A stretch of DNA of 41,924 nt. It comes from an uncultured Bacilli bacterium. Lineage in GTDB: Bacteria > Bacillota_I > Bacilli_A > RF39 > UBA660. Both the position numbers and the translations under genes were made by a program. The notes under the pieces are model-generated. The model did no database searches. It saw nothing but the letters and a program-made list of their open reading frames with translations, and had not been told where the DNA came from. Shown in pieces: positions 12,479 to 41,844 of the stretch. The DNA is taken from assembly GCA_944332725.1 (NCBI GenBank), contig CALVKO010000006.1, positions 1-41,924 of the forward strand. The letters run 5' to 3'. How positions within the stretch are numbered: position 1 is the first letter of the stretch; each line of letters begins with the position of its first letter.

Positions 12479-12520
12479 AAAAACCACCAAATGTGGTTTA
12501 TTTTTCATTTGGTGGAGTCG
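12479..12520 (-). terminator. tmRNA terminator overlapping the encoded CCA end
   Basis: On the minus strand CCACCAAAT pairs with ATTTGGTGG around an A-rich loop and is followed by TTTTAA. The left arm is made of the tmRNA's own 3'-terminal CC-ACCA bases, so processing must cut within the hairpin. Confidence 0.75.
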
Positions 12521-12852
12521 AGGGGAATCGCACCCCTGTCCGAAAATATAAAGATTAAAGTTCTACAAGTTTAGATAATTTGCTAATGTCCTAAATAATA
12601 ATAAATTATCAAAATTTTATTTAGTAATTCTTATCTTAATTCATCAATAATTCTAAGAAAAAATTATCAATATAACTCACTAATCGAGCCTCTTTTATAT
12701 TCCGTGAGTAAAAATATAAAGAAGCAGCCTTCTAATATATTAAGCGAAAGCTAATTGATTTCTGTTTCCAGTTATTTTTAAGTTTGAATGTTTCGTATAT
12801 CTTACGACTTGCCCTTTAAAAATTATTATTTCCGTCGAAACTAGACGACCCC
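12510..12852 (-). ncRNA. ssrA: Transfer-messenger RNA (tmRNA, ssrA)
   Basis: The RNA frees stalled ribosomes with SmpB. The acceptor stem is intact: 5' GGGGUCG pairs with CGACUCC before an encoded ACCA (3' end 12510). The TPsiC-arm GGACAGGGGTGCGATTCCCC and the D-like GUCUAGUUUCGACGG are typical. Before the tag frame, TTAAAAATAACTGG closely matches the B. subtilis resume-site context TTAAATATAACTGG. Reading from GGA gives GNRNQLAFA then TAA, so the predicted tag including the tRNA-borne Ala is AGNRNQLAFA. It is 343 nt and follows smpB directly under its own promoter. Confidence 0.95.
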
Positions 12853-17424: not shown

Positions 17425-19596
17425 CTAATCTTCATCATTAAAGAAATCATCAAAAAATTCATCATCAGTAACACCATTGATTACTTTGCTTTCTTCTTCT
17501 TTTAATTTAATTTCAGGTAATGGTGTCGTAGCTTGTTTAATATCTTGTTTAATTTCTGGAATAGGATTAGTTGAAACATCAGTTTTTTCAACAGGTGTTG
17601 GAGTGACTTTATTTTCAATAGGCACTGAAATAGTATTATCAATAGGTTTTGTTTCGGTAGAAGAAACTTTATCTTGAGTTAATTTAGCTGCATTTTCTTG
17701 TTTTTCTTGTTCTTCTAATTCTGCTATTTTAGCATCAATTCTCTTAACTAAAGAATCAATATCAAAAGAATCATTTTTTGGTAATGGTCTCTGTTCAGGT
17801 CGTGGTATATTAGGAATTCCTCCACCTGCTGAACTCATTGGATTAAATGAATTCATCATTTCATTTAATTTTGATTCTCTTTTTTTATCAACATATGCTT
17901 TTATATCAAACAATTTAATTTCTTGTTTTTCTCTTTCTGGATAAGTTGCTTTAGGATAAGACTTACCCCAGCCACCTTCTTTTTGAATTTTCCAGTCAGG
18001 AACAACTTTAGTTTTAAATGGCATTGATCTAATTCTTAAAACAATAATTGTATTTTCAGGTAATCTTTGTAAATCACTAACTGTTACTAAAGGAGTACTA
18101 GCAGTTTTATCTTTTTCTTTTGATTTAACTTCACCACATAATTTACTAATTTCCTCTAATGATGCTAATTCACTACTAATGAGGTATACAATATTACCAC
18201 AGTTACCTTTAATTGTTTCACCATTTTCTTTGCCATATACTTGATACAATTGCGCAAAGTTTTGAATAATAAATGTAAATCTTATATTTCTACTTCTTGC
18301 TGCTGTAACCATTGTAGTTACATCTTTTAAAGGTGGCATGTTAGCAAACTCATCTAATATAAAATTAGTTTTAAATGGTAATTTACCCCCTGACTCTTGA
18401 GCAACATCAATCAATGTCTCATAACATTGCTTAATAAATATTGTAACTAATGAATGATATGTTTTCTTTTCATCTTGAATTACTAAAAATACCGCTGTTT
18501 TTTTACGACCTATATCTTTTAAATCAAAATCACTGTGACTTAACATTTCAGATAAATTTTCTCTTGATGAAAATAATTTTATCTTTTGTTTAAATACTGA
18601 TAAAATACTACTTTTTGTATCATTAGGTGCCATAATAGTTGAAGAAACATTGATATAAGCGGGACTCGATTTATCTTTGTAACCAAAGTATTCCTTTATA
18701 TAAGTAGTATTACCTATTTTTTCTTCCCCAACAGTAGTCATTAAATTAATTGTATTTAAATTTATTTCTTCTTCTTTAGCATCTTCAAATAATGCTAGCG
18801 CTAAACCTGTAAAATAATCTGCAGATGTTTTTTCCCAAAATGGATCTTGACTTTGTGCCTTATCATCATAAAGAATATTCATTGCTAAGTCATCTAACAA
18901 CTCATTTGCTTTGTCTTTATTACCATTTTTATATAATTGATATGGCAAACCTAATGGATTCCATGCACTACCTTTTTGTGGATCACGAAAATTTAATAAT
19001 ACAATGTTATATCCTTTTTCTTTTAACATTTCAGCATTATTTTCATAAATTTCACCTTTTGGATCGGTAATAATCATAGATTCACCTTTTTTAGCCAATA
19101 TTCTAACCATTGGTTGAACCATTGTTTGAGTTTTACCAGCCCCAGTAGAACCTAATATTAGATTGTGATATTCACCTGAATCAACCCAAATTTCTTTACC
19201 ATTATTTATTAAAGGAATTCCCGCATATTCACTTGTTTCTTGATTAGGTAAAACCTTATTAATACCACTTTGTTTTTTAAATTCCTTTTCTTCTGCCCAT
19301 CTTGAGTATCCTTTTTCTTCTTTAGATCCTGTACTAAACCCAAAACCTTTATCTCTTTCAAAAAAATAAGAAGATACACTAGTAAAAATAAAAACTAACG
19401 CGAAAAAATATCCTACTAATGTTGGCAATAAATATTCACTTGTAAAGGCTGGAATAGGATTTAATCCATGAAAACTAGCATCGGTTGCAAAACTTGATAT
19501 ATTAAGTACTGCAATAGCTACAAAATATAACAAAACTACTGCAAATATAACAAATATCAAATAATCTTTAGCTGTTGCCTTAAATTTTAATTTCAT
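17425..19596 (-). CDS. VirD4/TraG-family type IV coupling ATPase
   Basis: Coupling proteins gather substrates at the membrane and feed them to a type IV secretion channel. The 723-residue protein has two N-terminal membrane helices (about 10-35 and 50-75), Walker A GSTGAGKT (about 150-157), a GEIYEN block, Walker B ILDEFANMPPL (about 415-425) and the conserved AARSRNIRFTFIIQN. The last 180 residues are an acidic, Pro- and Thr-rich tail ending EFFDDFFNDED, possibly a docking tail. ATG 19596 has AAGGGGTGA upstream; the GTG at 19605 lies in that site. It is the last gene of the type IV set. Confidence 0.93.
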   Translation of the reverse strand: MKLKFKATAKDYLIFVIFAVVLLYFVAIAVLNISSFATDASFHGLNPIPAFTSEYLLPTLVGYFFALVFIFTSVSSYFFERDKGFGFSTGSKEEKGYSRWAEEKEFKKQSGINKVLPNQETSEYAGIPLINNGKEIWVDSGEYHNLILGSTGAGKTQTMVQPMVRILAKKGESMIITDPKGEIYENNAEMLKEKGYNIVLLNFRDPQKGSAWNPLGLPYQLYKNGNKDKANELLDDLAMNILYDDKAQSQDPFWEKTSADYFTGLALALFEDAKEEEINLNTINLMTTVGEEKIGNTTYIKEYFGYKDKSSPAYINVSSTIMAPNDTKSSILSVFKQKIKLFSSRENLSEMLSHSDFDLKDIGRKKTAVFLVIQDEKKTYHSLVTIFIKQCYETLIDVAQESGGKLPFKTNFILDEFANMPPLKDVTTMVTAARSRNIRFTFIIQNFAQLYQVYGKENGETIKGNCGNIVYLISSELASLEEISKLCGEVKSKEKDKTASTPLVTVSDLQRLPENTIIVLRIRSMPFKTKVVPDWKIQKEGGWGKSYPKATYPEREKQEIKLFDIKAYVDKKRESKLNEMMNSFNPMSSAGGGIPNIPRPEQRPLPKNDSFDIDSLVKRIDAKIAELEEQEKQENAAKLTQDKVSSTETKPIDNTISVPIENKVTPTPVEKTDVSTNPIPEIKQDIKQATTPLPEIKLKEEESKVINGVTDDEFFDDFFNDED

Positions 19597-19639
19597 TAAG
19601 TTCACCCCTTAATCATATATAAGTATATCATATTATTAA

Positions 19640-20314
19640 TTAAATTTCATTATTTTTTTTACCAATAACAACAATAATAACTATGACAATAGCAATTATT
19701 ACAAATAATCCACCAAATATAGAAATAGTTAACAAATTATCAATTATAAAATTAAATATTTTTTCAAAAAAGTTTAGTTCTCGTAATTCACCAAATTTTA
19801 CATAAATTTGTTTATCTTTTGCGTTTTCATCATTTATATTCCATATAAGTTTATTATTTTTTAATTCATCAGCATTACTTTCAATAATTTCGTGATTAGA
19901 AGTAATAATTATTTCAACGCTATCAACTTCATTGTAATCAACAAACATGCACTTAAAACCTTTACTTGTTGATAAAATATAATCATTATTATTAGTAACA
20001 AAACTGAAAGCATCAAAACAACTATTAATGTAAAGAGCATGCCTAAATTCATCAAAATTATATGTATATTCATAAGCAGCAGTAAAATAAGAGTTTCCAT
20101 CATTATATTTTGTTTTATATAGTTTTTGAGTCGAATTATCAAAAATTGAAAAAGCGGTATATTTTTTTAAATCACTAATTTGTTTTTCATTTTCATTACT
20201 TATTTTTACATTTATTTTTTCAATTAAATTATCACCATTAAAATTTAATTCGTACTTTATTTGGCAACCAGTTAATAAAACAACAAATAATATTAAAATA
20301 ATTTTTTTAATCAC
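19640..20314 (-). CDS. Predicted lipoprotein with C-terminal membrane anchor, type IV set
   Basis: A protein of about 224 residues starting MIKKIILILFVVLLTGCQ. The LTGC lipobox predicts lipidation of the Cys near residue 17. An extracellular domain of about 165 residues follows, then a second hydrophobic helix near the C-terminus and a short basic tail. Two anchors, lipid and helix, would tie the domain tightly to the membrane surface. I do not recognise the domain. GTG 20314 is preferred because AAGGGTGG is 5-6 bases upstream. It overlaps the SpoIID-CHAP gene and precedes the coupling-protein gene, so it is probably part of the secretion apparatus. Confidence 0.7.
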   Translation of the reverse strand: MIKKIILILFVVLLTGCQIKYELNFNGDNLIEKINVKISNENEKQISDLKKYTAFSIFDNSTQKLYKTKYNDGNSYFTAAYEYTYNFDEFRHALYINSCFDAFSFVTNNNDYILSTSKGFKCMFVDYNEVDSVEIIITSNHEIIESNADELKNNKLIWNINDENAKDKQIYVKFGELRELNFFEKIFNFIIDNLLTISIFGGLFVIIAIVIVIIVVIGKKNNEI

Positions 20315-22808
20315 TTGATCCACCCTTACCTAATATATAAACATATCCATTAAAAGTATATCCTGTGCCGTAACTTTGTAATTGTTCAAAAGTTTTCGTT
20401 GTTGTACTAATAACTACATTGTCCCAATTTGAAGCACCATGTGCTCCTGCTCTATTCCACCCTTCTGACATAACAACAGTTCTATTTTCATAATCAACAC
20501 TTTCTATTATTGCAACATGTCCATAATCATGTCTAGCACCTGCGTCCGTATCACTAGTCCAAGATATTATAGAACCAGGCATTGGCATATTTCTATCAGT
20601 ACTTTTTTCAAATATATCTAATGACGGATAATCAAACCATCCTTCACCGTTTGCTCTAACAGACATTATAGCATTCAATGCAATGGATTTGGTTAAATCG
20701 TCCATATCAGAAGATAAAATTATTTCTAATGCCCTAGATTTTGCATACCAAACACATTGTCCTAAATTACTAGCATTACTATCATATATCTTTGATAAAT
20801 CAAATTGTTGACCACCAATTGAAACAATTCCTAACGATGAATAATAATCCGATCTTTCCTTTAATTCTTCAACACTTGAAGGTAAAGCAGAAGAGCTCTC
20901 AAATCCTCCAAATATGGTATTCATACCTACTATTTCAATTCCATCAGAATAGAAAAAATGTAATATTTCATCATATGATGAACCATTGTTTGCCATTTCA
21001 TATGACGCAACTTGACTCATACCGCGTCCGTGACCACCAGCAATCATATAATAATATTCTGGACTTAAATAAACCTTATGTGTTTCACCATTTGGCTTCT
21101 TTGAATAAATAACATATCTTTTACCATTTTCTTCACCATAAGTACAATTAGAATCACCATAACAATATGAATCATATTCTGAAGAAAATATCTCATCATC
21201 ATACACTAGTACCAAACCTTCAGTTGCTTCAGTTGCTTCTTTAGCAAAATCTTTAATATCTTCACTAAATACTTGATCACTTTGACTACTTTCAATTGCT
21301 TGCGAACAATTTTGTGTCCTACTTAAAGTATATGTTCTAACAGCAATAGCTTGGGCCTTATATGCTTCCATATTTTGACCACCCCACGCTTCGCCACTTA
21401 CTACACCAGCAACATATTCCTCTAAATCATATGTTCCTATAACACTACCATCAGGATCTACTACAGTAACACCCGAGCAATATGCATAAACTTTACCAAA
21501 AGATTTATGCTCATCAAAATTTTCATAAAATGAAACCCTTAAAAATATTTCTTCTACAGCGCGATCTATTTTACCCTGTGTATCCTCATTTTGCTTATTA
21601 TCATAATAAAATTTAAGCATAAATTCATTTTCTAGATATTCACGGTATCTTTCTATATCTAATTTATATTTTTCTTCATAATCAATTACTAATACTTCAC
21701 TTTTTTCACCTGTTTCAGGATCTGTAACGGTTTCATAAACATCTTCTGGACAAAAGTAATTAATATCATCATAATTTTTACCATCACTACCTCTACACAT
21801 ATGTTCACCATTAGGTGCTGCATATTCAGAACCATTTTCATAACAACAATAACTAACCATTTTAGTAGCTAACAAGTCTACTTTCTTTTCACTTTTTTTA
21901 AAATTAACATAATTAGATGGTAATAAAGCATCAATACTTGAAGCATTATCATCATCACCAGCAGTTGTTAAAAAAGGATCTGAATAAGTAAGTGTTGCTG
22001 TTATTAAATTAGTATTTAATGTTACATAATATGGATCTTTTTTGTATTTTTCATATGATTCTTCTATTTTTTCATAGAAATCATTTTGTTCTTTTTCTTC
22101 ACATTCAGAATCAGTACACCAACCTCTAAATGTTAATAAATTTCCGATTTTTTCACCAATCGATGATAACGAACCAGTAACATTTCCCATTATTTTATTA
22201 ATGTAAATTAAAGGAGCAATACTCAAACTTATTATAGCAACCAAAATTATAACTAACAAACATCCATTAATACCAAAAGTTCCTGCAGTGAAAAAACTAA
22301 TGATTTTTTTAGCCAAATCAGCCCCAAAACTACCAGAACCATCTATATTTTCCTCTTGCTCTTTATCTTTCTTGAAAAAATTAAATAATGATGGTTTCAA
22401 TGGATTTTGCAATTTCTTTGAAGTTTCATTTAGTGCAATTTGTCCAAGTTTAGTTTTTGATAATTGTTCAACTGCTATTCCACCAACTGGACCAACAGTA
22501 GCATCTGCTGCCTTTTTAGCGCCTTCTTTTATGATTTTTTGTTTGGCCTGATTAATCTTATTATTTCTATTCAAATTATTTTGTTGTAACTTATTTCCTT
22601 GATTTGTTTGATTACTAGAATACGATTTTTGTTCTTGAAAATTATTCCTTTTATTAAAATCTTCTAATTGATTATCATTATTATTTAAAATTTTATTTTG
22701 TGAAGGCAATGGTTGTTGAACATAATTTTGTTGAAAAGATTTTTCTTTTGGTGATGCCGAAAAATTTCCTTTTTGAGGAAATTCTTCTTTTTTATCTTTA
22801 TTATTCAT
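20307..22808 (-). CDS. SpoIID-CHAP two-domain peptidoglycan hydrolase of the type IV secretion set
   Basis: An 833-residue protein likely to open the cell wall for the secretion channel, the job of VirB1/CwlT-type proteins. Order: a Gln/Asn-rich cytoplasmic region (1-175), one membrane helix (about 180-205), and an external Cys-containing linker. Next comes a SpoIID domain (about 440-625) with VVSGEAWGGQNMEAYKAQ carrying the catalytic Glu, and GGHGRGMSQVASYEMA. Last is a CHAP domain (about 675-830) with Cys in LGQCVWYA and His in YGHVAIIE. SpoIID cuts glycan strands, and CHAP domains cut peptides or amide bonds. ATG 22808 has GGTGAT four bases upstream. Pairing SpoIID with CHAP in a conjugation-type protein is unusual. 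Confidence 0.85.
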   Translation of the reverse strand: MNNKDKKEEFPQKGNFSASPKEKSFQQNYVQQPLPSQNKILNNNDNQLEDFNKRNNFQEQKSYSSNQTNQGNKLQQNNLNRNNKINQAKQKIIKEGAKKAADATVGPVGGIAVEQLSKTKLGQIALNETSKKLQNPLKPSLFNFFKKDKEQEENIDGSGSFGADLAKKIISFFTAGTFGINGCLLVIILVAIISLSIAPLIYINKIMGNVTGSLSSIGEKIGNLLTFRGWCTDSECEEKEQNDFYEKIEESYEKYKKDPYYVTLNTNLITATLTYSDPFLTTAGDDDNASSIDALLPSNYVNFKKSEKKVDLLATKMVSYCCYENGSEYAAPNGEHMCRGSDGKNYDDINYFCPEDVYETVTDPETGEKSEVLVIDYEEKYKLDIERYREYLENEFMLKFYYDNKQNEDTQGKIDRAVEEIFLRVSFYENFDEHKSFGKVYAYCSGVTVVDPDGSVIGTYDLEEYVAGVVSGEAWGGQNMEAYKAQAIAVRTYTLSRTQNCSQAIESSQSDQVFSEDIKDFAKEATEATEGLVLVYDDEIFSSEYDSYCYGDSNCTYGEENGKRYVIYSKKPNGETHKVYLSPEYYYMIAGGHGRGMSQVASYEMANNGSSYDEILHFFYSDGIEIVGMNTIFGGFESSSALPSSVEELKERSDYYSSLGIVSIGGQQFDLSKIYDSNASNLGQCVWYAKSRALEIILSSDMDDLTKSIALNAIMSVRANGEGWFDYPSLDIFEKSTDRNMPMPGSIISWTSDTDAGARHDYGHVAIIESVDYENRTVVMSEGWNRAGAHGASNWDNVVISTTTKTFEQLQSYGTGYTFNGYVYILGKGGSSD

Positions 22809-22829
22809 AAACATCACCACCACTTATTA

Positions 22830-24614
22830 TTATAATCCACCGCCACTACCAAAAGAATCTAATTCTTGTTCTGTAGCGATTATATTTATTCTCATACGCC
22901 TACTACCACATACAAATAAAGCTTCACCTTGATTGTATTTTTTAATACTTTCTTTTTCATTATCATTTAAATCTATTAATTTAGATAAATCTTCAACTGC
23001 TTGCTTTTTTAATCCCATAACTAAATAATATGAAGCATTATCAAAAATTGCTTTACCTTGAGTTATAACAGAAGGATCACTAAAATCTGATGGTTGTTGC
23101 GTTATTATGATAGTACCGGTATTGTATTTTCTAGCACGTCTTTGAATTTGACCTAAGAAATCTGCACCCAAAATATTGCTACCAGAAATTAATACATGGG
23201 CTTCATCAACAGTTAAAACAGTGTTAATACTTGAATCTAATGTTAAGCTCCAAGCATATTTTAATATATTGAAAAATAAAGCATTTCTGATATTTTTATC
23301 ACTGTTCATTAATTCTTTAATATTGAAAACAACAAAATTGCTTTTTGGTTGAATTGTAGTATGTCCATCAAAATAATACCTTAATTCTTTAATTAATGGT
23401 CTAATTTTTAATTCTAATTTTTCTAAGATATCTTTTTCATGTGTCTTTTCAGGAATTGATAACAATTTTCCTTTAATTGTCGCATAAACATCTTTAAATG
23501 TTGGATAATCTTTAGATGTTAATTTAGAAAAATCAGTTGTAAAATCAATACCAAATCTTCGATATGTTTCTTGTACAATTTCACTAAAAATATTTATAAC
23601 ATCTTCATCTGTACTTGGATCGTAATATTTGATAAAAGCTTTTATTGATTGTAAAGTTCTTGTTAAAACAGTGTAACCTAATCCTTGTTTAATTTCATCA
23701 TCATCAGCATCCATTATTATTTCTAGTGGATTTACCATTCCGAATTCTCCACCTTTACCTAAATCAATGAAATCTCCACCATATAATTTGGCCATGTCCT
23801 CAAATTCGCCTTCAGGATCAATGATAACCAATTGAATGTCATTTCTAATATGCGTTCTAATTAATAATTTTGCTGCTGTTGATTTACCAGAACCAGATGT
23901 ACCTAAAATAATAATATTTGCATTATTTCGATTATGCTCTTTCTTTATTTGATACAAGAATTGATTAAATAAGATTACTCCACCAGAAAAATCAACACCT
24001 AATAAACATGATAAACCTGGATCTTTAATACTATCAAATATAAATGGGAACATTGCAGCTATAGTAGGAGCAGGAATTGGAGTACCAATTCTACTTTCAA
24101 TTGATTGGTTAGGGAAAATAGGTATTATTGATTTTAAAACTTTTTCTTGTTCAAATCGTAATGGAAAAGCTTTTAGTTCCATCGCTTCCAAATAACTTTT
24201 TACCTGCATTTTTTTTGCTATTAACTCTTCTTCAGAATTAGCAGTTATCATAACATGCATTTGAAAATCAAATATTTTAGATTGTGTACTAGCCAATTGT
24301 GAAATGAAATATTCTAATGATTCATAATCCTGTCTGATTCTTTCTTGAATAGTTCTATCATTTTCTTCTTGATATCTTACTTTTAAATCTGCTATTTCTT
24401 TATTTAACATTCTTTGAATAACACTGAATGGTAGCGGAATATGTTTTATAACAACTTTCACTCCAGACATACTTGTTAAATTAGCCAAATACCCTGGTGA
24501 AATAAATTTTGGATAAGAAATTACTGTTAAAATTGTAGCATGTTTATCACTAATAATAAAATCACTTGATCTAAACTCCAAACCTTTAGGAGCAATTTGA
24601 CTTTTAATATCCAT
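22830..24614 (-). CDS. VirB4/TraE-family type IV secretion ATPase
   Basis: VirB4 ATPases power assembly of and transfer through type IV channels. The 594-residue protein begins with the family entry DIKSQIAPKGLEFRSSDFI and has an N-terminal domain of about 210 residues. The RecA-like domain follows, with Walker A GTSGSGKST (about 240-248), Walker B LTVDEAHVL (about 470-478) and RARKYNTGTIIITQQP. It is shorter than the usual 650-830 residues at the N-terminus. The start overlaps the stop of the 181-residue gene (TAATG), so the two are coupled and may together equal a complete VirB4. Confidence 0.93.
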   Translation of the reverse strand: MDIKSQIAPKGLEFRSSDFIISDKHATILTVISYPKFISPGYLANLTSMSGVKVVIKHIPLPFSVIQRMLNKEIADLKVRYQEENDRTIQERIRQDYESLEYFISQLASTQSKIFDFQMHVMITANSEEELIAKKMQVKSYLEAMELKAFPLRFEQEKVLKSIIPIFPNQSIESRIGTPIPAPTIAAMFPFIFDSIKDPGLSCLLGVDFSGGVILFNQFLYQIKKEHNRNNANIIILGTSGSGKSTAAKLLIRTHIRNDIQLVIIDPEGEFEDMAKLYGGDFIDLGKGGEFGMVNPLEIIMDADDDEIKQGLGYTVLTRTLQSIKAFIKYYDPSTDEDVINIFSEIVQETYRRFGIDFTTDFSKLTSKDYPTFKDVYATIKGKLLSIPEKTHEKDILEKLELKIRPLIKELRYYFDGHTTIQPKSNFVVFNIKELMNSDKNIRNALFFNILKYAWSLTLDSSINTVLTVDEAHVLISGSNILGADFLGQIQRRARKYNTGTIIITQQPSDFSDPSVITQGKAIFDNASYYLVMGLKKQAVEDLSKLIDLNDNEKESIKKYNQGEALFVCGSRRMRINIIATEQELDSFGSGGGL

Positions 24615-25159
24615 TATCCTAACACCGTCCCAAAAGTAGTAGTTGTACCACCATTTAAAAAGTTATCCAAAATCATTCTCAAATCATCATTAGTTGTTTG
24701 ATAAGCAATTAATCCTGCTCCAGCAAAAGTATTAATTAAATTTCTTATTCTCTTTTGAATTAAATCATCTTTCTTTTCTCTAAATAGTAAAAAATACTCA
24801 GTATCAACTATATTATTATTCATAAACATATTTCCTTTATTAATATCTTCCATTATCAATTTTCTTTTAACTGGATTACTAACATTATTATATAACAATT
24901 CTAATTGTGATAAATAAACATTTATATCAACAGGTCTATCAGCTGCAATTATCCAAAATTCATAGTCTATCGTATTATAGACAGTTCGTAAATTTGAAAT
25001 AATACTATCTTGTGTTAATTGATCTAAAATAAAAATATTTCTAGGCATTATTTTAACACCAGTAACTTTCAATCCATTATCTAATATTATATATCCATTT
25101 TTTATTTCTTTTACTGGTATATCATCATTTGTATACCTATTTCTTTTTTTCTTCGCCAT
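24614..25159 (-). CDS. Small protein between PrgI and VirB4, possibly TrsD-like or a split VirB4 N-terminus
   Basis: A soluble protein of about 181 residues with a basic N-terminus (MAKKKRNRY). It has an alpha/beta body (GYIILDNGLKVTGVKIMP) and a C-terminal helix rich in FAGAGLIAYQT followed by a Gly/Thr tail (NGGTTTTFG). The position between a PrgI-like gene and VirB4 equals that of TrsD in staphylococcal conjugation clusters. Added to VirB4 the length would be about 775 residues, a normal full-length VirB4. Homology to either cannot be proved by eye. ATG 25159 follows a GGTGTG site; the start overlaps the PrgI gene by 23 bases. Confidence 0.6.
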   Translation of the reverse strand: MAKKKRNRYTNDDIPVKEIKNGYIILDNGLKVTGVKIMPRNIFILDQLTQDSIISNLRTVYNTIDYEFWIIAADRPVDINVYLSQLELLYNNVSNPVKRKLIMEDINKGNMFMNNNIVDTEYFLLFREKKDDLIQKRIRNLINTFAGAGLIAYQTTNDDLRMILDNFLNGGTTTTFGTVLG

Positions 25160-25454
25160 GTGGTACACACCAACCTTTCCACTTAAATTTTCTTTGATTT
25201 GTATAAAAACTTATTGCTGAACCAATCAAAGTTCTCATATTATAGTAATTTGGAACTGGGAGCACTAAAAATCCTGTTATTAATGCTGGAAGAAGTGCAA
25301 TAATTGATATTGCAAATTCTTCCAATGGTAATGTCATTAATAATAATAAAGTTAGTCCAACACCACATCCAAACAAAATCAAATCAAATTTTGTAAATAA
25401 TCCCAATATCAACATTGATTTTTTTGCATTTGCTGGTATCAAAAAATTATTCAT
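25137..25454 (-). CDS. PrgI-family (VirB3-like) inner-membrane protein
   Basis: A 105-residue protein with two adjacent membrane helices (about 22-42 and 45-68), then a short cytoplasmic tail with FYTNQRKFKWKG. Size, topology and position directly before VirB4 match PrgI/TrsC/VirB3-type components, which link VirB4 to the membrane. AGGGGTGAT precedes ATG 25454, and a TATAAT at 25479-25474 lies eight bases further up. The gene may have a second promoter besides read-through from the VirB6-like gene. Confidence 0.8.
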   Translation of the reverse strand: MNNFLIPANAKKSMLILGLFTKFDLILFGCGVGLTLLLLMTLPLEEFAISIIALLPALITGFLVLPVPNYYNMRTLIGSAISFYTNQRKFKWKGWCVPHGEEKKK

Positions 25455-25508
25455 TTTATATCACCCCTTTTTAATTATAAATAGTTATTATTTTAAAATT
25501 TTATTAAA

Positions 25509-27305
25509 TCAAGATTGTTGTGAATTATTATTATTTGGTAAAAATGGCTCTGCAGTTCTCATTGCGTCTTCAACATCTTTTTTAGGAGAATCATCAATAT
25601 GATACAATCTTTTAATATCTTTAATTTGATCATCAAGCGAACTAATATTTTTAGCATATTTACCATATAATTCTCTATTGTCTTTAATATCCTTCTCAAT
25701 AGAAATTTGTGAATTATTCATAACATTTATTTCTGCCTTTATTCTATCTTTTTCTACTTGAGTTGTAGCGGAATTATATTCCATATTTTTTTTCTCTATT
25801 TGTGTTTTAATATCCTTCAATCTATCATAATGTGATTGAAGTGCAGCATCTAATTTAGCTTGTTCACCTTGTAAAGCATACTTACTATCTTTATATTTCT
25901 TTACTTCTTTTTCACCAGTTGATTTTCCGAAATCTTTCCAAAAACCATATTGAGTAAAATCTTTACCTGTTATTTCTTTATAACCGGCTTGCATACCTGT
26001 ATGCAATGCTCTTGGGCTTTTTCCCCCTTTATCGTCACCCATTAATGGAACTTTACCTCTTATTTCTCTACCAGCCCCCATCATACCTTGCCACATACCT
26101 CTACCAGGATGTCCTGCTTCTACACCTGCTTTGTATCCAGTATAAGCTCCTCCTGCTAATGCAGCAGCTGTTGTTACGCCTGCACCAACTAAAGGTGTTT
26201 GTCTTAATTTATTCATCGGATTAAGAGTAAATTTGCCGTCCATCTTAAATCCAGTCAATTCTTCAATTAATTTAGGTAATTGTTTAGCAAATAGCAACGC
26301 ACCTAATATAATAAAAACTTTTACAAATGCATTAATATCAGGAGTTTGACCCGTAACAGCATCTTCCATTTCTAAGTCAATAAGTTGAGTTACTATAAAT
26401 ACGGCAAAATAAATTCCTAATAATCTAATAAATAAATCTAAATAAGTATTAACACAAGTTTTAACCCATTTATCAAACATATCTTTTCCTTTTTTAGGAT
26501 CAATTCTAGATATTATTGGCACAGGCGCTAACATACGTAGAAATCCAATTTTTACACTTCTAACGGCAATATCAAAGCAAAAAACTATCAATAATAGTGC
26601 AATTGCTCCACCTGCTAAAGTTGAAATAATTGGTATATATTCCATAACATATTGTTCATCACTAGTTTTCATAAATAATAAATCATAATCCATATAAATA
26701 CTAACACTAGATGTATTGTGTGCTGTTTCTAATATTTTTTTTAAATTTTCAAAATTATCTACTTTTAGCGCACTTTCACATCCACTTTCACTAGTAAACA
26801 CATGATTTCCATCACTCATACAATCAGAATATTTTCCTGTATTTTTCACATGATAAAATGCTTTTAGTGTCTCATAAGCCATAATATTACCTGGCTCATT
26901 ACTTGTATCAATATTAACACCATTTACAGAAAAAACTTTTCCAATAATATTATCATTTAAAATAATTCTTTGTATATCCATTGCTTGATTAAAAATCCAA
27001 GGCACAAACAATAATAACGCTAAAGTAATTATTATATTACTAATTAGTTTACTAAAACCCTTACTCTTGTCTAAAAAAGCATCTGGATCAACTATGTATG
27101 TAAAAATTGAAAAAGAAACTTTAAATAGCATAAAAACTCCTAATAAAGCATAAACTTTATTAGCAAATAATTCAAAAATATCATTAGTAAAAATAGATGT
27201 TTGAGCTATATCAATCAACAAGCCGTAAACTGTTGATATAAAATTATATAAAATTCCATCTAACCAAAATGATAAAAACCTTGCTATTATCTCTATATAT
27301 TCCAT
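25509..27305 (-). CDS. Polytopic VirB6/TrbL-like channel protein
   Basis: A 598-residue membrane protein. Hydrophobic helices occur in the first 100 residues, then an external domain (about 130-210), then four or more helices to about 350. A Gly/Ala-rich segment (VGAGVTTAAALAGGAYTGYKAG) and a charged, coiled-coil cytoplasmic tail ending in Gln/Ser and Asn follow. This layout is typical of VirB6/TrsL/Orf15 proteins of Gram-positive conjugation systems. It uses ATG 27305 (MEYIEII) with GGGAG six bases upstream; the longer GTG start lies in that site. It is the first gene of the type IV set. Confidence 0.85.
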   Translation of the reverse strand: MEYIEIIARFLSFWLDGILYNFISTVYGLLIDIAQTSIFTNDIFELFANKVYALLGVFMLFKVSFSIFTYIVDPDAFLDKSKGFSKLISNIIITLALLLFVPWIFNQAMDIQRIILNDNIIGKVFSVNGVNIDTSNEPGNIMAYETLKAFYHVKNTGKYSDCMSDGNHVFTSESGCESALKVDNFENLKKILETAHNTSSVSIYMDYDLLFMKTSDEQYVMEYIPIISTLAGGAIALLLIVFCFDIAVRSVKIGFLRMLAPVPIISRIDPKKGKDMFDKWVKTCVNTYLDLFIRLLGIYFAVFIVTQLIDLEMEDAVTGQTPDINAFVKVFIILGALLFAKQLPKLIEELTGFKMDGKFTLNPMNKLRQTPLVGAGVTTAAALAGGAYTGYKAGVEAGHPGRGMWQGMMGAGREIRGKVPLMGDDKGGKSPRALHTGMQAGYKEITGKDFTQYGFWKDFGKSTGEKEVKKYKDSKYALQGEQAKLDAALQSHYDRLKDIKTQIEKKNMEYNSATTQVEKDRIKAEINVMNNSQISIEKDIKDNRELYGKYAKNISSLDDQIKDIKRLYHIDDSPKKDVEDAMRTAEPFLPNNNNSQQS

Positions 27306-27352
27306 ACAATCTCCCACTCTCTAGTTAAGTAATTATCATAAACAATTATATC

Positions 27353-38484: not shown

Positions 38485-38516
38485 AAATATCAATCCTCAT
38501 TAAAAATTATAATTAT

Positions 38517-38548
38517 TTAAGATATAGCAAACACACACATTCAACGTG
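38517..38548 (-). pseudogene. Detached 3' end of an RlmD-type methyltransferase gene (att site copy)
   Basis: In one minus-strand frame the sequence reads HVECVCLLYLK-stop, the typical C-terminal signature of RumA/RlmD proteins, with no gene body upstream. The intact gene at 39402 ends HVECVCLLKLR. The DNA of the shared part (38528-38548 and 39417-39437) matches in 20 of 21 bases. This is what remains of the original gene end after an element inserted there. Confidence 0.75.
38528..38548. repeat. Direct repeat, left copy (candidate attL)
   Basis: CAAACACACACATTCAACGT followed by G. It matches 39417-39437 in 20 of 21 positions (A to G at the fourth base). Confidence 0.8.
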
Positions 38549-38675
38549 CCTTGTTTGTATATTATGACTAGTTGGTTTTGATATGTATTGGTGTGAGTGA
38601 CTAATTCATAATATAACATAGCAATATAATACAATAAAATAACATATATATCTATTAAACAAACTAAAAAGCATT

Positions 38676-39206
38676 TTATGTATATTTTTGTTTAATCCAA
38701 ATTTGAGCAATACATTTATTACAATTTTTATCCCTGTTTATACATTTATAACAATAATTATTTTTCTTATAATAATCATTACCTAAATCTTTAATTATTT
38801 CATATCCACACTTTTCTAAAATAAATCTAGAATTTACATATCTCCCGTTATCTCCCCATGCTTCATAAATTATATCATATTCATTATTATTACTGCATAA
38901 TTCTAATAAGTTTGTTCCAATTCCTCTACCTTGATATTCTTTATTGACAACTAAATATAAAATTTCCTTGACATTCTTTAAATTCAAACTATATTTATCA
39001 CACTCTAAAACATCGCTTATTCCGCAAGCTCCTACTATTTTATCATCAATAATACAGACATAATAATTATTTATATCTTTAGATATTTCTTCAATATTAC
39101 TTTCTAATATTGGCTTTTCAGATTCAATATTACAAGTTCCGAGTAAATCAGTAACAAGTTGTGCTATATAATTAATATCGTTACTTATAGCTTTTCTATA
39201 TTTCAT
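38676..39206 (-). CDS. GNAT acetyltransferase carried by the putative element
   Basis: A 176-residue GNAT. It has DDKIVGACGISDVLE, then the strand NVKEILYLVVNKEYQGRGIGTNLLELC, in which QGRGIG is the acetyl-CoA loop. A Cys-rich C-terminus follows (CYKCINRDKNCNKCIAQIWIKQ) with four Cys in two CxxC-like pairs that may bind zinc. The extra Cys cluster is unusual for a small GNAT. The start is ATG 39206 with GGTG close upstream. Flanking non-coding DNA and the repeats suggest that it came in as cargo. Confidence 0.85.
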   Translation of the reverse strand: MKYRKAISNDINYIAQLVTDLLGTCNIESEKPILESNIEEISKDINNYYVCIIDDKIVGACGISDVLECDKYSLNLKNVKEILYLVVNKEYQGRGIGTNLLELCSNNNEYDIIYEAWGDNGRYVNSRFILEKCGYEIIKDLGNDYYKKNNYCYKCINRDKNCNKCIAQIWIKQKYT

Positions 39207-39401
39207 AAACACCAGCTTCTTTCATTAATAATTCAACTAATCAACCAATACCACTAGACCTTGTATGTGGAAACATATACTACTAAAACAACCTATCATA
39301 TTTTTGAAGTGTTTTTTTATAAAATTTTGCTATTTTTGACTATTTTTTTGACTTTTTTTAGCGCCCTATGTATAGTTGATTTTCTCTTATTTTATAAGGG
39401 T
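39207..39401. other. Non-coding right part of the putative element
   Basis: No open frame with a convincing start. It contains tandem TTTTTGACT-like units (about 39333-39360) and a GCGCCCTATG segment. TATAAGGGTTTAACGCAG abuts the methyltransferase stop. These could be recombinase arm sites, but that is a guess. Confidence 0.35.
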
Positions 39402-40580
39402 TTAACGCAGTTTTAACAAGCACACACATTCAACGTGATAAGTATTACTAAACATATCAAAAGGTGTAATTTCTAAAACATCATAATATTCTTTTAAAAT
39501 ATTTAAATCTCTTGCTAAAGTAACTGGATCACAAGAAACATAAATAATTTTATTAGGGTTTATCTTAATTATATTATTAATACTATTACTATCCAAACCT
39601 GCCCTAGGTGGATCAACAATTACGATATCCGCTTTAAAATTATTTCTAGATAAAATAGTTCCTACATCACCGCTAATAAAATCTATATTTTTAATATTAT
39701 TTAATTTTTTATTAATTTGAGCATCTTTAATTGCTTCTTTATTTAACTCAATACCTAAAACATTATTAGCCTTTTTAGAAACATAAATGCCAATTGTACC
39801 AGTTCCACAATATAAATCTAAAACATTCCCACCATCAATATAATTTAAAACTTTGTTATAGATATTAATCATTCCAATATTATTAACTTGAAAAAAAGAA
39901 GTTGGCGAAATAATAAAATTTAATCCATTAATATTTTCTTTAATATAACCATTCCCTTTAATAACTTTATTATTTACAATTATTGTATCAACATCAAGAT
40001 TAATTTTACTGGTTATATTTCCATAGAAAACGACCATACTTTCTAAATTAGTTACTCTTATGACTATTTTATTTATTTTACTAATATCTAATTTTTTCAA
40101 TTCAACGATTATTTTATTTATTTTATCATCAACTAATAAACATTTATCAATAGCAATAATATCATTAGTTTTTTTCTTAAAATATCCTATTTCCTTATTA
40201 ACTTGTAAAGTTATCTTATTACGATAATTAAATTGCTTACTTCCTACAATACTATTCACACATTCTAAATCACTAAATTTTTTAATTATCTCTTTAACTT
40301 TATTTTCTTTATATTTAAGTTGTTCTTCATAAGATAAATGCAACAAATCACAACCACCACAATTGTCATAATATGGACATTTACTTACCACTCGTATTGG
40401 ACTAGTTTTAATATACTTATCAACAATTCCTTCCATATAATTCTTTTTTTCTTTAGTTACAATTATTTCAACTTCTTCATCTATTAAACTGTTTTCGACA
40501 AAAATAGGCATATTATTTACTTTAGCTATACCTCTTCCAAAGTGATCTAAATTTTCAATTTTAACTACTAACTTTTTCAT
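39402..40580 (-). CDS. rlmD: 23S rRNA (uracil-5-)-methyltransferase, RlmD/RlmCD type
   Basis: Methylates 23S rRNA uracils (U1939 and, for RlmCD, U747) with SAM. The 392-residue protein has an N-terminal TRAM domain, the 4Fe-4S ligands in CPYYDNCGGCDLLHL, and SAM motif LDLYCGTGTIGIYV. The catalytic site appears in IVDPPRAGL and YVSCDPVTLARDL. The C-terminus HVECVCLLKLR has the family HVE signature but its last residues come from the inserted segment. A TGA-TATAAT sits only six bases before ATG with no Shine-Dalgarno, so the mRNA is probably leaderless. Confidence 0.93.
   Translation of the reverse strand: MKKLVVKIENLDHFGRGIAKVNNMPIFVENSLIDEEVEIIVTKEKKNYMEGIVDKYIKTSPIRVVSKCPYYDNCGGCDLLHLSYEEQLKYKENKVKEIIKKFSDLECVNSIVGSKQFNYRNKITLQVNKEIGYFKKKTNDIIAIDKCLLVDDKINKIIVELKKLDISKINKIVIRVTNLESMVVFYGNITSKINLDVDTIIVNNKVIKGNGYIKENINGLNFIISPTSFFQVNNIGMINIYNKVLNYIDGGNVLDLYCGTGTIGIYVSKKANNVLGIELNKEAIKDAQINKKLNNIKNIDFISGDVGTILSRNNFKADIVIVDPPRAGLDSNSINNIIKINPNKIIYVSCDPVTLARDLNILKEYYDVLEITPFDMFSNTYHVECVCLLKLR
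39417..39437. repeat. Direct repeat, right copy (candidate attR) inside the methyltransferase gene
   Basis: CAAGCACACACATTCAACGT followed by G, encoding the HVECVCLL end of the protein. It is paired with 38528-38548. Confidence 0.8.
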
Positions 40581-41731: not shown

Positions 41732-41740
41732 CAAAAAAAA

Positions 41741-41844
41741 ATTGGCAACTTGCTATTTTCGCTTACACTATCTTCGCCGTTAAAGAGCTTAACTTCTGTG
41801 TTCGAGATGGGAACAGGTGTATCCTCTTTGCTATCGTTACCAAT
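41741..41844 (-). rRNA. rrf: 5S ribosomal RNA
   Basis: The minus strand reads ATTGGTAACGATAGCAAAGA, then the conserved CACCTGTTCCCATCTCGAAC and AGAAGTTAAGCTC, and ends GCAAGTTGCCAAT, whose TTGGTAAC pairs with the start. At about 104 nt it is shorter than the usual 115-120 because the helix IV-V part is trimmed, a size seen in some Mollicutes relatives. Confidence 0.95.

Follow-up and report, generated by a model that had tools for sequence, protein, structure and literature searches.

A putative single-gene, recombinase-free cassette in the 3' end of rlmD of uncultured Bacilli, probably mobilised by large serine recombinases

Known elements at methyltransferase genes

SCC elements (SCCmec) are islands that carry Ccr serine recombinases and lie at the 3' end of the methyltransferase gene rlmH. 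CIMEs are att-flanked derivatives of ICEs that lack recombination genes; a related element can mobilise them in cis or in trans. Integron cassettes are mostly single genes, arranged in one orientation and in tandem at one site, for which the enzyme is supplied from elsewhere. ECC islands also carry Ccr serine recombinases in the 3' end of rlmH, measure 21-78 kb, encode ccrAB and possess direct repeats and variable cargo, with composite islands containing several attR sites (PMC6222049). Among streptococcal ICEs and IMEs, a single serine integrase targets rumA, which is the same gene as rlmD, and the att site is located inside the integrase gene (PMC4701971). Direct repeats of 2-21 bp and exchanged 3' ends are described for rumA/rlmD elements, CTn5 of C. 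difficile is placed in rumA (PMC4701971; PMC12785378), and an Erysipelothrix prophage adjoins rlmD (PMC12785378). The targeting of rumA/rlmD by serine integrases and the presence of serine-recombinase islands at rlmH are already known; the new part is a small recombinase-free unit with standard ends, present in many genera. In the open-licence PMC literature, where an absence carries little weight, no recombinase-free single-gene cassette arrays at rlmD/rumA were found.

The locus described here lies in a stretch of 41,924 nucleotides from an uncultured Bacilli bacterium, referred to as a whole as the window; compared genomes are designated by G numbers and loci by L numbers. Similarly to SCC and ECC, insertion takes place at the 3' end of a methyltransferase gene, large serine recombinases are present at the site, the cargo is variable, and direct-repeat att sites are accompanied by composite tandem arrays (G009, G320 and G389). 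Unlike in SCC and ECC, the target is rlmD (PF05958) and not rlmH, and the window cassette is devoid of a ccr-type large serine recombinase, such genes being found only in larger elements at the same site; in contrast to the size of ECC, most units measure 0.9-3.2 kb, hold between one and three genes and lack a recombinase. The target, the site-specific insertion, the short repeats and the replacement of the gene end are shared with the serine-integrase elements of rumA/rlmD. Those elements, which are autonomous or conjugative, differ from the window cassette, which has no integrase of its own (the elements of G001, G389, G280 and G005 encode one) and holds a single GNAT gene, with no conjugation or mobilisation genes. 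CIMEs are resembled in that units flanked by attL and attR, without a recombinase, are stacked at one site, whereas the recurrence of single-gene units with common ends across genera suggests that they spread independently and do not go back to one deletion. Integron arrays likewise consist mostly of single genes in tandem and in one orientation, but here long conserved ends seem to stand in place of the folded attC, no integron integrase is apparent at the locus, and serine recombinase elements occupy the site. Hairpin (attC-like) ends were unsupported, their folding being no better than that of shuffled sequences (z of 0.89, -1.29 and -0.16).

The rlmD end in the window and an empty site in the genus

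Downstream of rlmD on the minus strand come a spacer, the cargo GNAT gene, a second spacer, a detached HVECVCLLYLK-stop and a host GNAT gene (Table 1). The cargo GNAT is the sole gene between the two cores, and rlmD itself ends in HVECVCLLKLR-stop. A preliminary description of this DNA had reported a 21-base near-identical direct repeat around about 0.9 kb, an intact HVECVCLL gene end in one copy, a detached HVECVCLLYLK-stop without a gene in the other, and one GNAT cargo gene with a Cys-rich tail. All of this is borne out: the 21-mers at 38528-38548 and 39417-39437 share 20 of their 21 bases, the longest exact repeat is the 17 nt of the two cores, both gene ends can be read directly, and the cargo is a GNAT by Pfam, with a tail that reads C-x2-C-x6-C-x2-C. 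Over a longer stretch (38520-38548 and 39409-39437) the copies are identical at 25 of 29 positions, and the core 18-mer, with up to 2 mismatches allowed, is found at only 2 sites in the window's genome, the assembly of which is 71% complete. The repeat on its own is statistically weak: when the 4.4 kb region was shuffled 1000 times under a second-order Markov model, an exact repeat of at least 17 nt arose in 46 cases. It derives its weight from the in-frame position at the gene end and from the comparative evidence.

Table 1. Features of the rlmD locus in the window, with their coordinates
Feature	Position	Strand	Basis
rlmD, 23S rRNA m5U methyltransferase, rumA-type; target host gene	39402..40580	-	Pfam PF05958/PF01938
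attL-type core CACGTTGAATGTGTGTG, rlmD 3' end	39421..39437	-	Inside left-end profile R3 match 39358-39437
Cassette left end	39222..39430	-	Alignments A2/A5; conserved ~80 nt between genera, ~200 nt within genus
Cargo: GNAT acetyltransferase, 178 aa, likely ATG start 39206	38676..39212	-	Pfam PF13508/PF00583
Cassette right end, TATTATGAATTAGTCA..CTAGTCATAATATACAAACAAGG + core	38536..38653	-	Alignments A1/A4; profile R2 match 38536-38640, E 1e-21
attR-type core, same 17 nt as the rlmD copy	38532..38548	-	Direct reading
Orphan HVECVCLLYLK-stop	38513..38548	-	Direct reading; no gene body upstream
Downstream host gene, second GNAT, 164 aa	37999..38493	-	Also behind core in G001, G016
Entire cassette, 889 bp core to core	38542..39430	-	Putative cut within GA of both cores

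Elsewhere in the window, a gene for a TMEM164-family membrane protein (PF14808; 37257-37988) belongs to the host and is found repeatedly on the downstream side of the rlmD site within the genus, a tmRNA gene is present at 12510-12852, and a 5S rRNA gene (41740-41844) lies just upstream of the neighbour of rlmD, near the contig end. A run of genes at 17425-27317, in housekeeping surroundings, resembles a type IV secretion or conjugation set (VirD4- and VirB4-like by eye).

Within the genus, the rlmD query matched 15 of the 18 genomes, a count that includes weak matches to other methyltransferases. In G009, the rlmD of which is 84% identical, four core copies stand behind the gene and bracket three units, 1431, 879 and 1067 bp long. 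In the middle unit the same GNAT as in the window (86%) is present together with both ends, one outer unit holds an unknown gene of 139 aa, and the other a broken gene with a relative in another genus; copies of the window left end in G009 are 94% and 84% identical. The 88-aa gene past the last core of G009 is nearly the same as the gene that directly follows rlmD in G015, and the outer flanks of G009, once joined, align with G015 over 1407 positions at 91.1% identity, in one ungapped block across the junction. By this alignment, G015 is an empty site relative to G009, which places the demonstration in G009 and not in the window's own lineage; a relative with rlmD ending in YLK directly before the host GNAT, as had been expected, was not found. 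The tail of the orphan recurs in G001 with a 96.7% identical flank after the core. As judged from these comparisons, the orphan HVECVCLLYLK-stop is the original rlmD end of the host, displaced by the insertion, and the last rlmD codons in the window (LLKLR-stop) are cassette-derived. A truncated rlmD paralogue was discarded as the source of the orphan end, there being no gene body upstream and the sequence before the core being the conserved cassette end.

The cargo GNAT was found in 6 of the 193 sampled genomes of the family. Its dN/dS of 0.15-0.33 over 15 pairs indicates purifying selection, and because of these values we consider that it is retained as a working protein. It had no match in PADLOC, and its predicted structure (mean pLDDT 63.9 from 6 sequences) was judged too weak; the most likely role is that of a modifying enzyme that works alone and is of selective benefit to host or cassette. 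The preliminary description had seen in the segment a worn-down remnant. The 879 bp unit of G009 with both ends and the selected cargo point instead to a complete minimal cassette. In three other genera (G062, G065 and G086) the cargo GNAT, 77-84% identical, stands directly behind rlmD with different neighbours, the rlmD genes being 40-45% identical, and the right-end search found no right end behind it. A decayed GNAT-Cys copy at L107 (G096), with a serine recombinase close by, is situated between genes that resemble lepB and ylqF by eye, suggesting that the cargo travels outside the rlmD site too.

Shared ends, cargo and larger elements in the family

Conserved ends of ~80 nt on the rlmD side and ~118 nt on the far side surround unrelated cargo. 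Searches with the right-end profile yielded 37 sites, distributed over 34 of 386 family genomes and 26 of 150 genera, and those with the left-end profile yielded 30 sites, in 28 of 193 genomes and 26 of 148 genera. For the right-end set, rlmD is upstream on the same contig in 18 of the 34 genomes; G280 showed only the rlmD end motif in the examined stretch, G257 was left out, and the 14 others have no rlmD in the examined stretch, which is often at a contig edge. Coordinates compared by eye indicate that 28 of the 30 left-end matches overlap the rlmD 3' end, the other two being second copies in arrays; for the weak matches (E above 1e-9), some of the score comes from rlmD codons that the model includes. 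The pattern of right end plus core was found in 13 stretches of the GTDB collection, all of them MAGs titled uncultured Bacilli, Tenericutes, Firmicutes, Bacillales or bacterium. The same pattern had no match in IMG/VR, and viral carriage of the cassettes was rejected on this basis.

Delimited from core to core, 25 units measure 878-3244 bp (median 1431), and all their listed cargo ORFs of at least 75 aa are in the orientation of rlmD. Three cassettes are stacked in tandem in G009 and three in G320, and G351 harbours a larger unit, with rlmD and its left end followed by a right end ~8.5 kb on. Between units, right ends are 60-82% identical over ~75 nt up to the core and ~35% beyond it. Five rlmD genes that share a left-end type are 57-85% identical over the last 200 nt before the core (57-74% between genera) and 94-100% identical over the 70 nt after it. 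This jump at the core, from 57-74% to 94-100% between genera, implies that the element supplies the new gene end. Together with the empty site and the ends shared among genera, it supports the site-specific insertion restoring the rlmD end that had been put forward at the outset. A conserved rlmD terminator as the source of the shared left end is ruled out by the same jump and by the array left ends that lie away from rlmD in 5 of the 25 (G009, L110, L113, L138 and G280).

Most cassettes contain one or two genes, many of defence or toxin-antitoxin type; one member per cluster was scanned, the rest being assigned by cluster membership, and the PDC families are phage-defence candidates, not proven systems. 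RhuM (PADLOC PDC-S05) is the cargo in G256, G284, G027, G283 and G376 (mutually 77-96%), with a more distant copy in G077; ORF6N is found in G345 and G032 (92%), AbiEi/AbiEii in G333, G321, G181 and G348, and a YhcG nuclease (PDC-S02) in G389 and G391 (83%). Methyltransferases, a C39-type peptidase, a carbon-nitrogen hydrolase, a nucleoside deoxyribosyltransferase and unknowns make up the other cargo.

A parent element elsewhere and larger recombinase-bearing insertions at the same site had also been anticipated; the former was found within the genus, in G001, and the latter in G001, G389 and G280. In G001 a BREX-1 island (PglX, PglZ, BrxL) precedes a gene of MazF-like type and a large serine recombinase of 603 aa; the core lies 128 nt past the recombinase stop and is followed by the window-type YLK tail and the host GNAT. 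From the core on, 699 nt of G001 are 96.7% identical to the window, and the preceding 120 nt match at 37 positions; its right end gave no match to the cassette right-end profile. Downstream of a 598-aa serine recombinase in G389, and no more than about 100 nt away, lie a right end and a damaged core (~96 nt after the stop); a left end comes next, then the YhcG cassette and, last, a right end with an intact core. The right ends of the recombinase element and of the adjacent cassette are identical at 92 of 102 positions (90.2%). The recombinases, with the domains PF00239, PF07508 and PF13408, form a lineage (at least 60% identity) comprising G389, G280 and G001, all three at rlmD-type cores; that of G280 has an internal stop. 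G005 encodes another recombinase, 44% identical to that of G389; an HVET-type core stands where its match ends, and beyond this core the usual downstream host gene is present. The next relatives, at 49% (G330, and G267 near a contig end), are not at rlmD-type cores. The location of the core after the recombinase stop in G001 and G389 differs from the arrangement of the streptococcal rumA elements, which is resembled by two viral contigs from IMG/VR (L198 and L199; recombinases 47-48% identical) with the core inside the recombinase gene. Only a distant recombinase (33%, C9) was found in the window's own, 71% complete, assembly. Against plasmids, all recombinase matches are below 60% identity, and 1 of 565 records covers at least 80% of the query. 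Small conserved genes beside the recombinase at L141 and L172 are sigma-factor-like (~160 aa) and MazF-like (~130 aa), and at L163 and L164 (G267 and G330) several serine recombinase genes stand in a row, as operons, without an rlmD-type core behind them.

A candidate mechanism and its alternatives

We propose that the segment in the window is probably a complete non-autonomous cassette, integrated and excised in trans by the large serine recombinase of larger elements. Insertion exchanges the last rlmD codons for equivalent codons of the cassette, the old end moving to the far side. Integration and excision would be performed by a recombinase of the G389/G280/G001 lineage, acting in trans on the shared cassette ends; such action is suggested because the recombinases of this lineage sit at rlmD-type cores and G389 shares the cassette end. 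The crossover may take place at the dinucleotide GA within CAYRTTGARTGY, with the equally constant CA as the alternative: in every one of the 18 attL/attR pairs whose cores are good, the two cores are identical in G and A at offsets 6-7, amid variable neighbouring columns, and they are likewise identical in CA at offsets 0-1, in a count from which 7 of 25 cassettes with one core under 10 of 12 were dropped and in which the scoring motif itself favours CA and GA. Several observations weigh against this proposal: a recombinase of the lineage is present in only 2 of the 34 right-end genomes, with an internal stop in one of them (G280), the window's own assembly has a distant one alone, the right end of G001 does not fit the cassette profile, and G062, G065 and G086 showed no right end behind the GNAT. 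Many cassettes may be fixed, because several cores are damaged (7 of 25 below the score). The evidence for mobility is comparative throughout.

It can be hypothesised, more tentatively, that the site forms an integron-like platform for gene capture run by a large serine recombinase, in which short single-gene cassettes with common ends would pile up in tandem after rlmD. In an uncultured Bacilli family, across 26 genera or more, they would constitute a swappable stock, mainly of defence and toxin-antitoxin genes, moved in trans by enzymes of larger BREX-type islands at the same site. If cassettes are indeed mobilised in trans, this would be a serine-recombinase counterpart of an integron cassette collection, with units far smaller than SCC or ECC. 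The exchange of the last codons of an rRNA methylase keeps the host gene intact through repeated insertions. The ends of ~80 and 118 nt, the known target and the candidate enzymes define a compact recombination system in uncultured Bacilli, for which tools are poor, and the rlmD site is a marked spot for finding small defence genes by position.

The segment, and each cassette likewise, could instead be a CIME-like deletion derivative of a larger serine-recombinase island that has lost its integration genes and is no longer mobile, which we regard as unlikely. Further right ends are present in G012 and G014, and the deletion reading draws on G012, where a truncated cassette end adjoins a G001-type right end, on G016, where the left end is present and the right end absent, and on the recombinase lineage being found in just 2 of the 34 right-end genomes (G389 and G280). 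It is opposed by the recurrence of the same single-gene units in different genera (RhuM in five genomes, ORF6N in two, the GNAT twice in g1) and by the same short ends around unrelated cargos, which independent deletions would not be expected to yield. Movement by a tyrosine recombinase or by host XerCD is considerably less probable still: tyrosine integrases, too, typically use a short core shared at the 3' end of a gene, and the 17 nt core would suit them, but the recombinases seen at the site in the family are of the large serine type, one of them sharing the cassette end. Ordinary tandem duplication or illegitimate recombination that copied the rlmD 3' end, with no mobile element, is barely credible: the short exact repeat and its frequency in shuffles speak for it, but the empty site, the identity jump, the same cargo in other genera and the conserved ends lying away from rlmD in arrays all contradict it.

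Two observations concern the diversity of ends at this target. A different right-end sequence precedes rlmD-type cores at L117:349 and at L121:1282 and 2665 (G117 and G169); it reads ..CTGACACTGATACAACC in two of the three, the copies in G169 are 1383 bp apart, and rlmD may thus also be the target of another family of units, unrelated to the first. In the window, the left end (39358-39437) contains the motif AACTATACA and the right end (38536-38653) contains AACTAGTCA, unlike several other units, in which the same motif is present on both sides; the ends of the window cassette may be hybrids of two element lineages.
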